A DNA stretch of 59,323 nt from Ignavibacteria bacterium. Its GTDB lineage: Bacteria; Bacteroidota; Ignavibacteria; Kapaibacteriales; UBA2268. A model generated the notes under the pieces. The model was not told where the DNA came from and ran no database searches. It was given only the letters and a program-made list of their open reading frames with translations. Shown here in pieces: positions 46,272 to 58,965 of the stretch. The stretch is taken from the NCBI GenBank assembly GCA_026416955.1, contig JAOAEE010000029.1, forward strand, positions 1 through 59,323, in the 5' to 3' direction. A program made the position numbers and the translations under genes. The first letter of the stretch is position 1, and each line of letters begins with the position of its first letter.

Positions 46272-46742
46272 TTAAAATGGGAGGTCGTCTTCTTCCTCGG
46301 TTTTCTGTCCTTCAGATGAAGTGAATGGTTCGCTTTGTATATCGTTGATGTAATAAGAAGTAGGGTCGGCGAACTCGTCGTAGCCTTGTGTTTCGACGGG
46401 TTCTCTTTCCCCACGCGATTCAAGATAAACAATAGAACGAGCAATTATTTCTGTGATATACGAAGTGACCCCGTTCTTTTCGTAAGAACGAGTTTTATTC
46501 CTTCCTTCGACGCAAACCCTATGCCCCTTTCGCAAAAGCCTATTTGCTGTTTCAGCAAGTGGACCAAAGGCAACAACATTGTGCCATTCGGTTTCTTCTT
46601 TCCACTCCCCGTTTCGGTCGCGATATCTTTCGTTTGTGGCAACTCGGAAGCGACAAAGGCTCACACCTTGGGGGGAGGTTCTAAATTCGGGTTCTGCTCC
46701 CAATCTTCCGATAATGATAACTTTGTTCATTGAAAAAGGCAT
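46272..46742 (-). CDS. ssb: Single-stranded DNA-binding protein, with acidic tip
   Basis: A 156-residue SSB. The OB fold covers about 1-110 (NKVIIIGRLGAEPEFRTSPQG, later EEKTEWHNVV-like EETEWHNVVAFG). The disordered tail ends in EEEDDLPF, the canonical acidic tip that recruits replication and repair proteins. GAGG precedes the ATG at 46742. It is one of two adjacent ssb genes; this one looks like the general housekeeping copy. A hairpin separates it from the other copy. Confidence 0.93.
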   Translation of the reverse strand: MPFSMNKVIIIGRLGAEPEFRTSPQGVSLCRFRVATNERYRDRNGEWKEETEWHNVVAFGPLAETANRLLRKGHRVCVEGRNKTRSYEKNGVTSYITEIIARSIVYLESRGEREPVETQGYDEFADPTSYYINDIQSEPFTSSEGQKTEEEDDLPF

Positions 46743-46812: not shown

Positions 46813-47238
46813 TTATTGGTTTTCTGACTCTTCTGGATTGTAATCGCTGGGATAATCGATAGTAAATGTGTCGTCCGATTGGTTCCCAGATTCGGTTCTT
46901 TGTTGCTTTCTGCTCAATATGATGATGTTTTGTGCAATAATTTCAGTAACGGCTTTCCGTACACCATCTTTTTCAAAAGTTCGAGTTCGTAACTTTCCTT
47001 CGACATAGATTTTGTCGCTCTTCTTAATTTTCTGCACTGCGATTTCTGCAAGCCGGTCCCAAAGAACAACACTGTGCCAGTCGGTGATTTCTCGGCGTTC
47101 TCCATTCTTTCCGCGATAAAACTCGGTTGTTGCAACTCGGAGTGTACAAACACTATTCCCTTGCGGTGTTTTTCTCAACTCGGGGTCTTTTCCAACGTTC
47201 CCGATTAATTGTGCTTTGTTTAAGCTTCTTCCTGCCAT
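46813..47238 (-). CDS. Second single-stranded DNA-binding protein, tip missing
   Basis: A 141-residue SSB paralogue. The OB fold is clear (LNKAQLIGNVGKDPELRKTPQG, then EITDWHSVVLWDRLAE). The tail ends in DYPSDYNPEESENQ and lacks the DDxPF tip found in the neighbouring copy. I chose the ATG at 47238, with AGAGG upstream; the longer reading starts ten residues earlier without a site. Loss of the tip suggests a specialised role, such as natural transformation or a heterotetramer subunit. Confidence 0.9.
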   Translation of the reverse strand: MAGRSLNKAQLIGNVGKDPELRKTPQGNSVCTLRVATTEFYRGKNGERREITDWHSVVLWDRLAEIAVQKIKKSDKIYVEGKLRTRTFEKDGVRKAVTEIIAQNIIILSRKQQRTESGNQSDDTFTIDYPSDYNPEESENQ

Positions 47239-47409
47239 TTCGTAACCTCTAAATAATGTGAAAACCAACTATATACTTTACAATCCTCATAATACCCATC
47301 ATCTCGAAAACAAAAATATTAATTTTTTTGCAACATTGTGCAAAAACCCAAATTAAATATTCGATTTTATTAATAAAATATTTTTTTAACGATTAACTTT
47401 GTTTTTATT

Positions 47410-53716: not shown

Positions 53717-54517
53717 ATGGAGCAAATTGAAACATTATCGAGCGTAGAAGGGCGAAAGTTGTTGTACAAGATATACCAAGAACTTCGCTACCAGAAGCAG
53801 ATGGGCAATTTTGCAATTCTTTCTCTAACTTGGCGTATTTGCACAACCGAACGGGAAATTTCCCGCTATACTAAACAAGATGTTCAAGTTCTGCATCCTT
53901 TGGGGTTTTTCCGTGGAACTGCTCTTTGGATGGAAGAAATAGTTAATAGATTTTACTTTTCCACAATAAACTCTTTCGTTTATCTTGGGGCTGCAATATT
54001 GCTTGTGTTGATTGGAGTCCGAAGGTTTTCCACTGTTGTAACAGATACAATTGTAATCGCCGGTGTTGCTTTCGAAGCTTTGATGCTTTTGTTTATGTTT
54101 ATTGTGATGCTTTTTACTCCGAGCGAGGATGCCTTGCCGTTGAACCAAAACGAGGAACCACAAGAAGAAAATGCACTTCTTATCGAAGTTGGAGAAATAG
54201 CGACCGAGTTCGCTGCCGCTGTTAGTAAACTCGAAAATCTTGGCGATAATATTAAAAACTTGCTCATCCACCAAACTGAAATTTTGTCGTTATTACGAGA
54301 ATCCAACGAACTAACGCGCCAAATTGTTTCCCCAAACCCAAAGTTGCTCGATATTATGGAACAAACAAATAAGTCACTACAAGAATTTAACGAAACATTA
54401 CAAAAGTTGAACCAAAGCGCCACTCAATTGAAACAAGAAGAAATAGAAATTGCAGTTCGCCGAGAACTTGAGAAATTTTTTGCAAGTATGATTAACAACA
54501 GAAATGCAAAGCAGTAA
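53717..54517 (+). CDS. GldL/PorL-like inner-membrane motor protein of type IX secretion
   Basis: A 266-residue protein with two close membrane helices (about 84-101 and 110-133) and a long cytoplasmic coiled coil (about 155-240). The helices resemble GldL: FVYLGAAILLVLIGV aligns with the first GldL helix, and GVAFEALMLLFMFI with the second, keeping the membrane-embedded glutamate (E120) followed by a short TPSEDAL loop like the EPVEDEL of GldL. In known T9SS, that Glu serves the proton-driven GldLM motor. An extra 80-residue N-terminal region precedes helix 1. Overlaps the GldM-like gene by 14 nt. The assignment is from sequence pattern and partner gene. Confidence 0.65.
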   Translation: MEQIETLSSVEGRKLLYKIYQELRYQKQMGNFAILSLTWRICTTEREISRYTKQDVQVLHPLGFFRGTALWMEEIVNRFYFSTINSFVYLGAAILLVLIGVRRFSTVVTDTIVIAGVAFEALMLLFMFIVMLFTPSEDALPLNQNEEPQEENALLIEVGEIATEFAAAVSKLENLGDNIKNLLIHQTEILSLLRESNELTRQIVSPNPKLLDIMEQTNKSLQEFNETLQKLNQSATQLKQEEIEIAVRRELEKFFASMINNRNAKQ

Positions 54518-56006
54518 ACGAAAACGACGAATTGTTGAAATCTACTTTATTCTATATTTAGCAGCGTTAGTTTTTATCCTTCCAGAAAGCAGTTTCAAAC
54601 CCGGCGGCGGAAACGGTCCCGAGGTAATCGGGGATTTCCAAACTGGTTTTACTTTGATTCCCGAAAAGTCTGCTCTCGTTTGCAATGTGGTAGTTGAACC
54701 AAATGGTTATAGAATAACTAAAATCGATTCATCGAATGTGATTTTCTATACTGGCGATTTCGAAGATATTCAGTTCGAATTCACTGTTGAAGACCAATCA
54801 ACTAACCGCTCCGTTACCCTTCGCCCCGACAAAAATTACTCTGCAAAATATTTCCGCGTCGTCGAAGTTCCCGAAAAAAAAGCAGCAGTGTTCTATTGGC
54901 GACCCCAATATTTAGATAATTTTAATACTACATATTTAGTCAAGGTGGTTGCTACTGCAAAAAGTAAAAAAACATTTGGAACAAAATACCCAGAACGATT
55001 TACTTATAAAGCAACTGCACAGTTCACCTTGCTAATCGTTCTTATGAATGCAGTTACTGGCGAACAAACTATTGCCCAAGGCAACCAACAAACACCACAA
55101 TTTCCATTAAATATTTTGGAACAAACACAACAAATTCCAACTGGTTTTGGGGTTGGAAAAATTTCGGTTAACGCCTCCACCCCAAATGTTACTCAACTTG
55201 CATACCAACAATGGGCAAACACAATCAACGCAACAAATGTAAATTTAGCCTCGGACGCAAAGATAGACTTAATTGCACGCCCGGAACCAGAAAATAATGG
55301 TGGTACTGCTCAAATTTCCGAAATAAAACCCGATTACCTTGTCATTCGAGGTCGCACCCCGGGTTATGGTCGCCTTAATATTGAACTTGTTGTTAAAAGA
55401 AAATTCGATGGGCAAGAAGCCAGAACCTCCTTTGTTGTCGTACCACAGCAAATCGAAAAACCAATTTTCAAAGAATTCATCTATCCGGGCCAAACCGACA
55501 CCATCGACCCGCGTTTGCCCCTAATTGGCGGAGAATTGAAAACATTAATCAAAGATGGCAATAGAATTAGGGCTTCCAGCATTGGAGGTGCTCCAATTTA
55601 CTTTACTCCCGAATTAAGCGACACCGGCAAGCAACTAACACTCGAACGATACATCGACAACAACTTATTAGGACAAGTTTATACTATATATGTTTTAAAC
55701 TTTCCATTGCCCAAAATTGTCGATGTTATCAATACTGGAAATAGAGTTGTCGAAATTGTTACCCAAGCCTTTGGTGTTTTCAATCGCGAACGCAACGAAA
55801 TTGTTCGCCTTGAACTCGAAGGGAATGTTGCGGAACGATACATAGATTTGCGGGGTAAGTTGCAAGACTTTTATGGCAATCCCCCATATCGGCGGCAAAA
55901 TTTTCAATTGAAGCCAAAGGACCAGGGGAAACCTTTCGTTTTCGTTGTTACAGCAGTCGATAAATACGGTCGCCGTTCTGCCCCCCGCCGCGTCGTCGCC
56001 GATTAA
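54504..56006 (+). CDS. GldM/PorM-like periplasmic motor-arm protein
   Basis: A 500-residue protein with a single N-terminal membrane helix (about 11-26, IYFILYLAALVFILPE) and a large periplasmic part of beta-rich domains, the shape of GldM. Primary similarity to GldM is weak. The chief reason for the call is its 14-nt overlap with the GldL-like gene: gldL and gldM are almost always adjacent, and GldM inserts its helix into the GldL ring. A basic stretch (SSKRKRRI) fits a cytoplasmic N-terminus. The T9SS cargo gene at 57481 supports the setting. The other core genes gldK and gldN are not here. Confidence 0.55.
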   Translation: MQSSKRKRRIVEIYFILYLAALVFILPESSFKPGGGNGPEVIGDFQTGFTLIPEKSALVCNVVVEPNGYRITKIDSSNVIFYTGDFEDIQFEFTVEDQSTNRSVTLRPDKNYSAKYFRVVEVPEKKAAVFYWRPQYLDNFNTTYLVKVVATAKSKKTFGTKYPERFTYKATAQFTLLIVLMNAVTGEQTIAQGNQQTPQFPLNILEQTQQIPTGFGVGKISVNASTPNVTQLAYQQWANTINATNVNLASDAKIDLIARPEPENNGGTAQISEIKPDYLVIRGRTPGYGRLNIELVVKRKFDGQEARTSFVVVPQQIEKPIFKEFIYPGQTDTIDPRLPLIGGELKTLIKDGNRIRASSIGGAPIYFTPELSDTGKQLTLERYIDNNLLGQVYTIYVLNFPLPKIVDVINTGNRVVEIVTQAFGVFNRERNEIVRLELEGNVAERYIDLRGKLQDFYGNPPYRRQNFQLKPKDQGKPFVFVVTAVDKYGRRSAPRRVVAD

Positions 56007-56829: not shown

Positions 56830-57458
56830 GAACAAAAATTATTGATATGAACAATTATTCTCCACCTTTTCCGGGTTGTTCATTAATTGTTGAATATTGT
56901 TATTTTGTATGTACCCAAGTTCCCGCAAGGGCACCTTGCGACCAATGTGTAGCTTACCATATTAAATCAGTATCACCAACTTATCCATATTGCGGCGCTT
57001 GCAATAGCTTATTCAATTTTCTGAATTCTGGCGACCCTTATGAAAGGCAAATTAAGATTAGGAACCTTATTACATATTTAACAATTAAAATTATGGTAAC
57101 GAACTTTCAAGAATTTGTAGATGGTTTACCACCTCATATGAGAAGATATTGTGAGGATGGATGCTTCGCTAAATATTATGTGTATGAAGGTAAATGTCAA
57201 GCATACTGCTATGTCCACCATCCAGTTGAATTTCCTGATAAAAAATGGTTGATTACTCCAATTAATTGTGTTGAACAATATTGTTGTATAAGGGAATATT
57301 TATTTTGTTTAGATAGACAGAGTGGAAAACCACGATTTTACACTTCAATTTACACAATTCCGAATATTGTTTGTACTAATTTAAATATTCAATATTCAGA
57401 TTGCCCAATTGGGGAACATGTTGAAATATTACAATGTTTTGACAATTGTGCTCATTGA
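56772..57458 (+). CDS. Cysteine-rich secreted protein, apparently frameshifted at its 5' end
   Basis: A 229-residue frame with 21 cysteines, many in CxxC or CC pairs (ICGGC, CDQC, CGAC, EQYCC). I do not recognise the family. The cysteine content implies an exported, disulfide-bonded protein, yet this frame has no signal peptide and no ATG near its start; it opens only after a TGA at 56745 and the first candidate codons are CTG 56757 and TTG 56772. The signal peptide lies in another frame just upstream, so a one-base deletion or sequencing error is likely. It precedes the T9SS cargo gene by 22 nt. Confidence 0.6.
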   Translation: MFYPSPEICGGCRDWQPQIRTKIIDMNNYSPPFPGCSLIVEYCYFVCTQVPARAPCDQCVAYHIKSVSPTYPYCGACNSLFNFLNSGDPYERQIKIRNLITYLTIKIMVTNFQEFVDGLPPHMRRYCEDGCFAKYYVYEGKCQAYCYVHHPVEFPDKKWLITPINCVEQYCCIREYLFCLDRQSGKPRFYTSIYTIPNIVCTNLNIQYSDCPIGEHVEILQCFDNCAH

Positions 57459-57480
57459 CCAAATAAACAAGGAGGTAAAA

Positions 57481-58965
57481 ATGAAAAGACAAATACTTTT
57501 TATGGTTTTAATTACCTACCTTATATCATTAAGTAATGTAATTTGCCAGATAAATCTTAAATTTCAACAAACATATCCTAAAGTTGGGCAAATTACAAAT
57601 TGTAAATTATGTAAACTTGAAAATAATAAGATGTTTCTCGCAATATCGAACTGGTTCCCAGATACCACCGAATTAATGCTTGCGATTTTGGATAAAGATT
57701 TAAATTTGTTAGAGGTTTATAAAAAAATTTACACAACTGGTTTTTACAATTGGATTTATTGCCACGAGGATTTTATCGAATATTATGGTGTTTACATTGC
57801 TGGGGACAATCTTGAGTGGTGGTATGATTTCCAATTTATGATAGAGCGCTTTGATTATTCTTTTATGAATATTTTTTCATCAAAAGATACAACCTTTAAT
57901 CTTATGAGATACAACGTTAACCAAATTCCTATGGTTTTTCGGAAAAAGAACGGAACATATATTTGTAATACTTTAATGCCAATAGATACTCTTACAAAAC
58001 TGATTTATTTTGTTGAGATATATGATTCTTTAGGGAACTTCGTCAAAGAAGTTGTTTACGATACTTCAAAGTTCTCGAGGCGGTCTAAGTATCTGGGCTA
58101 CTTTAATAAAGATGAATACTACATCGAATTTCATCGTTTACCTCATGACTCTTTAGACTATCCCCCTGACAATTTTGCTTTAAAAATTTATTCCCCCGAC
58201 TTTGAGAAGAGAATTAAAACTGAAAGAGTTTCTTTGATTGGGGACGAAGTACGTTATGGAAGTTATTTCCATAAATTTAACAAGGACGGCAAATATCATT
58301 TCATTTTTCCCTCTACATATGTAACTGGTAAAACCAATATTATTGTATTGGATGATTGGGGTAATTTAATCGATAAAAAATTAGTTATATTGGATACAAA
58401 TTACATATGGTATTTTCAATCTGATCTAGTGCTATCCTCCGGAGATATCCTTTTTGGTGGTTGGGTGTATGACCCTTCACAAAGAAATTATTGTGGTTTC
58501 GTTGTAAAATTAAATAAAAATCTTGAAGTTGTCGATAAATTGATTTTCAATTGTGGTAGATATTTCACTTACTTTTTTGACTTTTTAGAATTAGAAAATG
58601 GTTCCGTCTTGGCAAGCGGGTCAAAGAAATTTGAGTTTTGGATTGGGGTTTTTGAGAATATTGTTAATAGCGTAGAACCATCGAACAATGCGGAAGGTTA
58701 TGCGAAAGTAATTACACGAAATAAGTCTGGTAAAAGTTTAGAGGTCATTGTAGAAATAAATCCTTCGGAAATAATTAAATCAATCAAAATTTGTGATGTT
58801 CTTGGGAATGAATTGTTGAACAAAAACAATATGCGCTGGAATTCGAATAATGAAAACCGATGGTCCGAAACTTTTGATATAGTAAATCTTTCTTCAGGAG
58901 TATATTTTATAGTGGTCGAAACGACTTCGAAGATTTACACGACAAAGTTTGTCCATGTTAATTAA
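57481..58965 (+). CDS. Secreted protein with T9SS type A C-terminal sorting domain
   Basis: A 494-residue exported protein. The signal peptide is MKRQILFMVLITYLISLS, cut before QINLKF. The middle is beta-rich and unrecognised. The last 85 residues are a type A sorting domain: INPSEIIKSIKICDVLGNEL, then FDIVNLSSGVYFIVVE and the basic end YTTKFVHVN. In known T9SS this domain directs passage through the outer membrane and is then removed. GGAGG precedes the ATG at 57481; the longer frame from 57409 overlaps the previous gene. Lying downstream of the GldLM-like pair, it shows T9SS is used in this organism. Confidence 0.85.
   Translation: MKRQILFMVLITYLISLSNVICQINLKFQQTYPKVGQITNCKLCKLENNKMFLAISNWFPDTTELMLAILDKDLNLLEVYKKIYTTGFYNWIYCHEDFIEYYGVYIAGDNLEWWYDFQFMIERFDYSFMNIFSSKDTTFNLMRYNVNQIPMVFRKKNGTYICNTLMPIDTLTKLIYFVEIYDSLGNFVKEVVYDTSKFSRRSKYLGYFNKDEYYIEFHRLPHDSLDYPPDNFALKIYSPDFEKRIKTERVSLIGDEVRYGSYFHKFNKDGKYHFIFPSTYVTGKTNIIVLDDWGNLIDKKLVILDTNYIWYFQSDLVLSSGDILFGGWVYDPSQRNYCGFVVKLNKNLEVVDKLIFNCGRYFTYFFDFLELENGSVLASGSKKFEFWIGVFENIVNSVEPSNNAEGYAKVITRNKSGKSLEVIVEINPSEIIKSIKICDVLGNELLNKNNMRWNSNNENRWSETFDIVNLSSGVYFIVVETTSKIYTTKFVHVN

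Follow-up and report, generated by a model that had tools for sequence, protein, structure and literature searches.

The closest described counterparts of the genes reported here are GldL/PorL and GldM/PorM of the type IX secretion system (T9SS). GldL/PorL proteins (TIGR03513, PF22827) combine two membrane helices and a short loop with a cytoplasmic coiled coil, carry an invariant glutamate in helix 2, show the motif GAA plus a basic residue in helix 1, and are encoded directly upstream of GldM. GldM/PorM proteins (TIGR03517), whose gene follows gldL, are about 500 residues long and have one N-terminal membrane helix with a conserved tyrosine after a basic stretch, followed by a long periplasmic part. 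According to PMC5790014, GldM consists of domains D1 (residues 32-232, five helices), D2 (233-320), D3 (321-405) and D4 (406-513). In Flavobacterium johnsoniae GldL, PMC8986121 describes E49 as strictly conserved and required for secretion and E59 as needed for gliding only. PMC9389320 discusses a 5:2 arrangement and presents the anchoring of GldL as unresolved.

With the exception of the helical D1, the layout traits named for the two families recur, some of them as predictions, in two overlapping genes at positions 53717-56006 of a 59,323-nucleotide stretch of Ignavibacteria bacterium DNA (order Kapaibacteriales; assembly GCA_026416955.1, contig JAOAEE010000029.1), which in its full length is called the window below. 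The available data make it very likely that this pair is a GldLM-type inner-membrane motor of the Kapabacteria T9SS. Since the translocon is present in the genome and the canonical GldL, GldM and GldN models return nothing there, the pair is probably the missing T9SS motor of this lineage. It nevertheless falls short of membership in the curated GldL and GldM families and is better described as a diverged variant: the own genome holds no match to the GldL model TIGR03513 (cut-off 68.3 bits) or to the GldM model TIGR03517 (cut-off 180 bits). In the open literature, as judged by titles and the beginnings of abstracts, no report of a GldLM-type motor in Kapabacteria was found.

Layout and conservation of the gene pair

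The host assembly comprises 2.49 Mb in 78 contigs and is 98.3% complete. Coordinates of open reading frames (ORFs) refer to the window, and comparison sets are termed own genome, order, class and phylum by their kinship to the host. The GldL-like gene (53717..54517, + strand, as for all features of the pair) encodes 266 residues and overlaps by 14 nt (54504..54517) with the GldM-like gene (54504..56006), which encodes 500. Among 10 loci from named genomes, the closest is that of Candidatus Kapaibacterium sp. Ch6, with 86% identity.

The GldL-like protein opens with an order-conserved region of about 80 residues (residues 1-80; 53717..53956), modeled as short helices, in which G12, R13, H60, E74 and R78, among others, are invariant in 9/9 rows of its alignment. 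The transmembrane hairpin follows (residues 81-133; 53957..54115), with hydropathy peaks at 83-101 and 112-130 that agree with AlphaFold2 helices at 81-104 and 110-133. Long cytoplasmic helices of the coiled-coil type (residues 149-264; 54161..54508) are predicted at 149-204 and 208-264 in the same model (mean pLDDT 69, pTM 0.34; all structure predictions were made on single chains). R103 (codon 54023..54025) ends helix 1, and E120 (codon 54074..54076) lies within helix 2. An earlier note on this DNA had proposed the two helices with a coiled coil, the glutamate inside helix 2 and the N-terminal region ahead of helix 1, and all three are borne out.

In the GldM-like protein, the only hydropathy peak (10-28) coincides with a single N-terminal membrane helix (residues 4-28; 54513..54587). 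Its AlphaFold2 model, built from a 10-row alignment (mean pLDDT 77, pTM 0.43, lower near the helix), has an all-beta periplasmic part. Specifically, strands at 51-182 form a predicted first periplasmic domain (residues ~50-184; 54651..55055), which is followed by a low-confidence stretch at 189-214 and by three further predicted beta domains (~218-316, 320-400 and 403-500 by our limits; 55155..56003) at positions like those of D2-D4. Of the GldM layout that the earlier note had assigned to this gene, the N-terminal helix and the three C-terminal beta domains therefore stand as predicted, whereas the five-helix D1 of GldM (PMC5790014) has apparently been replaced by a beta domain.

The pair is real and conserved and does not reflect chance. 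The GldL-like profile A1 (nine rows; L009 and L010 are not in it, and L009 is in the GldM set) was searched against a draw of 296 phylum genomes and gave full-length matches in all 25 own and order genomes. Outside the order, it returned a more diverged match in the class genome G162 (E 1.1e-35) and weak matches in 12 other class genomes; in the kinship-sorted list, the first rows shown without a match already lie outside the order. The GldM-like profile A2 (10 rows) recovered all 16 own and order genomes of a 198-genome draw as well as G162. The GldM-like gene sits directly 3' of its partner in 23 of 26 loci (L035-L060), the exceptions being L043, L048 and L051, the last of which (G007) has it on another contig. 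The two genes overlap in 21 of these 26 loci when the longest possible start is assumed.

At the residue level, E120, Y89, G91 and A92 are invariant in all 31 distinct order-level GldL-like proteins, each of which shows two hydropathy peaks, and R103 is always basic (R in 30, K in 1). In canonical GldL, the basic residue that ends helix 1 is K27, which has a functional role. At position 134, just before a conserved proline, 17 of the 31 proteins have T and 12 have S. Among 29 GldM-like proteins, E12, Y14, F15, L17, Y18 and L22 are invariant. E12 (54537-54539), at the start of the membrane helix, is found in 29/29, although none of the 20 canonical GldM rows has an acidic residue at this place; it is a possible second ion-handling residue.

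As to neighbors other than the GldM-like gene, a protein that reads as LptF/G-like is encoded upstream in L004, L006 and L008 and is not seen there in the window, L001, L003 or L007. Class relatives outside the order (L071, L061, L062 and L074, from G281 and G091) encode two or more distinct GldL-GldM-like pairs in each genome (two were read per genome), and the pairs of L071 and L074 are followed by large ORFs that, again by reading, resemble outer-membrane proteins.

Relationship to GldL and GldM

Profile comparison with hhalign used 20 canonical GldL rows (L015-L034), 31 order rows and six class rows from outside the order (G281, G091, G101 and G162), of which L071 and L062 are 98% alike, so that the six count as five; L082 and L086 were dropped as mis-cut. 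The order set matches canonical GldL at 78.4% (E 1.7e-5), and the order set together with the class relatives does so at 90.8% (E 1.2e-6). It is the hairpin that aligns, GAA falling on GAA and E120 on the glutamate of the second transmembrane helix. Reversed controls reach 2.7%, 1.7% and 4.9%, and of 200 local shuffles, in which columns were permuted within 12-column blocks, none attains the GldL score in any of three set-ups. The class relatives are tied closely to the order set (99.6%) and match canonical GldL on their own at 27.7%.

The structural comparison proposed in the earlier note, carried out on single-chain models, was not decisive. Foldseek places 7sax_D, a solved GldL hairpin, third of eight rows at E<=10 (E 7.6, 54 alignment columns, 55-residue chain), and VIA places it sixth of 26 (Z 5.0, 55/55 residues at 3.4 A); GldM was not singled out by the corresponding searches. 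Sequence matches of A1 in the Protein Data Bank (PDB) were of the coiled-coil kind, and a GldL chain among them, 7sax_C (E 0.084), was not counted, its match running through residues 143-237.

Several traits set the Kapabacteria protein apart from GldL/PorL. Besides the conserved N-terminal region and the missing family-model match in the own genome, the spacing from the glutamate to the proline after helix 2 is 15 residues, compared with 11 in the canonical row L020, and directly before that proline 29 of 31 proteins carry T or S, where an E ('FEP') is frequent in canonical rows.

For GldM, 20 canonical, 29 order and five class rows were compared, many GldM and GldM-like rows being incomplete at locus ends. 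The order set joined with the class relatives, which resemble it at 99.5%, matches GldM at 25-28%, a value equaled in 0 of 100 shuffles. The alignment covers GldM model columns ~236-422, with the beta domains of GldM in almost the same register. The N-terminal 60 residues of the two GldM forms alone reach 0.5%, and a PDB sequence search with A2 gave nothing useful. Differences from GldM/PorM comprise a first periplasmic domain predicted as beta, an invariant glutamate at the start of the membrane helix, and sequence similarity that is detectable only at the level of the class profile. The case for the GldM half draws on gene order, topology and the class-level profile more than on direct similarity.

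A further family, f31, was used for comparison. Its loci (L126:4830-9662, L075:1287-6136 and L127:1384-6677, from G146, G061 and G157) contain gldL, a short gldM (~380 aa), a GldN-size gene and, nearby, a gene of ~660 aa; in L126, the one locus scanned, the latter carries a C-terminal GldK-type domain (TIGR03525, E 4.7e-48, below cut-off). The Kapabacteria motor genes, in contrast, stand alone as a pair. The f31 GldL matches canonical GldL at 93.9% and the class relatives at 0.5%, and adding f31 to the canonical GldL set lowers the match of the GldL-like proteins with class relatives from 90.8% to 81.5%. A match of 90.1% between f31 GldL and the Kapabacteria GldL-like protein (model columns 73-190 and 125-241) was not counted, because it runs from the end of helix 2 into the coiled coil instead of spanning the whole hairpin. 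The canonical GldM model recognizes f31 GldM of G146 weakly from position 232 on, over the beta domains (E 2.3e-9), and in hhalign the f31 GldM matches canonical GldM at 98.1% from GldM column 221 onward. A GldM without a recognizable D1 therefore occurs elsewhere too.

The proposal of the earlier note that the pair may form a distinct branch of the rotary motor family is supported for the GldL half and moderately so for the GldM half.

Secretion context and a proposed motor

The same note had described the pair as lacking the rest of the T9SS core, which does not hold for the translocon. A genome search for gldK, gldN, sprA and porV finds sprA and porV, and PorU is present as well. SprA (G000:C12, E 2.7e-222) exceeds the cut-off in 40/40 genomes, i.e., the own genome and 39 relatives. 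PorV has four matches in the own genome (best E 2.9e-80; 91/118 phylum genomes over cut-off) and PorU a strong one (E 5.7e-232; 46/61 genomes over cut-off), with PorU lying directly upstream of PorV on G000:C54; both searches match every order and class genome listed. In addition, 1.4 kb beyond the 3' end of the pair, a probable T9SS cargo gene (57409..58965, + strand; translation probably begins at a later ATG) encodes a C-terminal type A sorting domain (TIGR04183, 34 bits, cut-off 23; PF18962, 29 bits, cut-off 27). Canonical gldL and gldM elsewhere in the genome, which the earlier note had named as counting against its reading, were not seen with the family models: the GldL model finds none in the own genome and none over cut-off in the class genomes drawn (48/198 phylum genomes over), and the GldM model likewise finds none in the own genome and none over cut-off in the class (36/148 over).

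The resulting picture draws on the genes, their hydropathy and conservation, the co-occurrence with SprA, PorV and PorU and the hairpin similarity, with predicted domain folds, and it borrows stoichiometry, proton flow, rotation and translocon contact from GldLM by homology. Five GldL-like hairpins would encircle a GldM-like dimer at its pair of N-terminal helices, and protons would cross the interface between ring and helices via E120 as proton carrier. The GldM-like shaft would then rotate and drive the SprA translocon, bridging the periplasm by means of three beta domains placed like D2-D4. Lineage-specific traits of such a motor would be the 80-residue cytoplasmic region before helix 1, the beta domain in place of D1, the invariant E12 that starts the GldM-like helix, and motor genes without gldK or gldN beside them. 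If position 134 corresponds to that of the E in 'FEP', which a four-residue gap renders uncertain, the lineage would have no glutamate specific to gliding, in keeping with a motor used for secretion alone.

A number of results weigh against this reading. Pfam and NCBIfam scans of the GldL-like protein give only weak rows below cut-off, mostly in the coiled coil, and those of the GldM-like protein give nothing. None of the structural scores of the GldL-like model reaches significance, and its Z of 5.0 is shared with unrelated helical hairpins; for the GldM-like model, immunoglobulin-type folds fill the Foldseek list, with no GldM/PorM among the 50 rows shown in each search, and strands take the place of a helical D1. 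The order-level GldM-like set alone matches GldM at 3.7-4%, with 1 of 100 shuffles as good or better, and the class relatives alone at 9.1%. The f31 GldM, tried as a bridge, was rejected, since it reaches only 0.3% to the Kapabacteria GldM-like set, 0.4% to the class relatives and 0.8% to both. On the genomic side, GldN (PF19841) is not found in the own genome, in four order genomes or in 15 other class genomes (18/80 over cut-off), although diverged forms are possible, and GldK (TIGR03525) gives one weak match in the own genome, at 71.6 bits with a cut-off of 350. GldK matches are below cut-off in G025 and G031 and lacking in G024 and G033, with 14/61 genomes over cut-off; the GldK/GldN ring may be absent or diverged in this lineage. 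Finally, a single cargo gene is the only linkage of the pair to T9SS genes, and with SprA in 40/40 genomes and the first gene in 25/25 order genomes, co-occurrence does not discriminate within the order.

Elsewhere in the window, two single-strand binding protein genes (PF00436) stand in tandem on the - strand (46272-46742 and 46813-47268).

Four-helix paralogs, rival explanations and implications

The A1 search also returned further matches in most order genomes, in frames of ~450 and ~345 aa. In the five loci read (L065:3877-5289, L067:3255-4595, L069:3089-4456, L066:3215-4261 and L070:3448-4479), these paralogs have two extra N-terminal membrane helices with an intervening stretch predicted to be periplasmic, then a cytoplasmic stretch and a hairpin with the motif 'Y.GAA.LI..GIRGLKFIP...LE'. 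Four hydropathy peaks appear in 17/17 rows of the set, 15 of them distinct (L067/L077 and L069/L076 are the same proteins). L068 was left out as a false match, reading as an MlaD/Mce-like protein. The corresponding A3 profile finds the longer form in 39/39 relatives and, by reading of the match table, the shorter form in 28/39; in the own genome it finds no paralog, and only the GldL-like gene answers (E 1.2e-9). The paralogs are linked to GldL through their matches to the Kapabacteria GldL-like proteins (98.1%, 0/100 shuffles) and to the class relatives (99.2%), as the direct comparison with canonical GldL yields 11.0%, or 7.3% for the hairpin alone. Pfam scans of three paralogs and NCBIfam scans of two of them found no family over cut-off, the only NCBIfam row being a weak ZorA match in the coiled coil (E 0.0042).

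In four of seven genomes judged (G024, read directly, and G025, G031 and G033, from match coordinates), the longer paralog adjoins a gene of ~1800-1900 aa with a PorU-model match below cut-off; it is not beside such a gene in G023, G235 and G001. The own genome has a large PorU-model-related gene on C68 (L129:2638-7935, frame 1765 aa), and the 12 kb read there contain no four-helix paralog. It is conceivable, if on the doubtful side, that Kapabacteria possess an enlarged GldL superfamily, in which the two-helix GldL of the T9SS with its GldM partner is joined by one or two four-helix hairpin proteins (~450 and 345 aa) with a MotA-like topology and no MotA sequence similarity, possibly forming a GldL ring anchored to the cell wall or to a partner. 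If true, such a ring would bear on how the GldL stator is held, the question that PMC9389320 presents as unresolved.

These paralogs also open an alternative in which the pair, as a GldL/GldM-derived motor of the 5:2 type, drives another envelope process, such as outer-membrane maintenance, lipopolysaccharide (LPS) export or secretion-independent gliding, and the four-helix proteins power the T9SS. The pair does lie on a different contig from SprA, PorU and PorV, and additional GldL-hairpin proteins occur in all 39 relatives, one of them adjoining the PorU-model-related gene in the four genomes named above. However, no GldM-like gene is adjacent to the paralogs in the five loci read or in G001, and the own genome, which has SprA, PorU and PorV, yielded no four-helix paralog, which makes this division of labor unlikely.

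More remote still is convergence, that is, an operon that happens to join an unrelated two-helix coiled-coil membrane protein with an unrelated periplasmic protein of the immunoglobulin type. Hairpins and immunoglobulin folds are common, the sequence family models are blank, and the structure matches are not significant or not specific. Yet canonical GldL is matched in hairpin register, in GAA, in the basic residue and in the glutamate, at a score that no shuffled control reaches, and gene order and T9SS context agree with GldLM, so that convergence appears very improbable. Membership in the MotA/ExbB/TolQ family of ion-driven motors instead of GldL has the least to recommend it and can be given hardly any weight. 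MotA has four helices, as the paralogs have four hydropathy peaks, and MotAB/ExbBD/TolQR are expected to share the general 5:2 ion-driven principle; they show no sequence-profile similarity. A phylum alignment of PF01618 (30 rows, including the mis-cut L099 and L115 as one-letter rows) matches the order GldL-like set at 0.4% and the four-helix family at 1.0%, and the own genome has separate PF01618 genes (three matches).

Read as a GldLM-type motor, the pair supplies the likely missing motor of a lineage in which, across the class genomes drawn, no curated model for GldL, GldM or GldN has a match over its cut-off. It shows which GldLM features persist through deep divergence: the glutamate of helix 2, the GAA motif together with a basic residue in helix 1, and a tyrosine in the membrane helix of GldM. 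It also suggests that a GldM may do without its helical D1 or carry a substitute. Family models seeded with the two proteins could uncover T9SS motors that escape the current ones, and the four-helix paralogs may bear on the evolution and anchoring of 5:2 motors.

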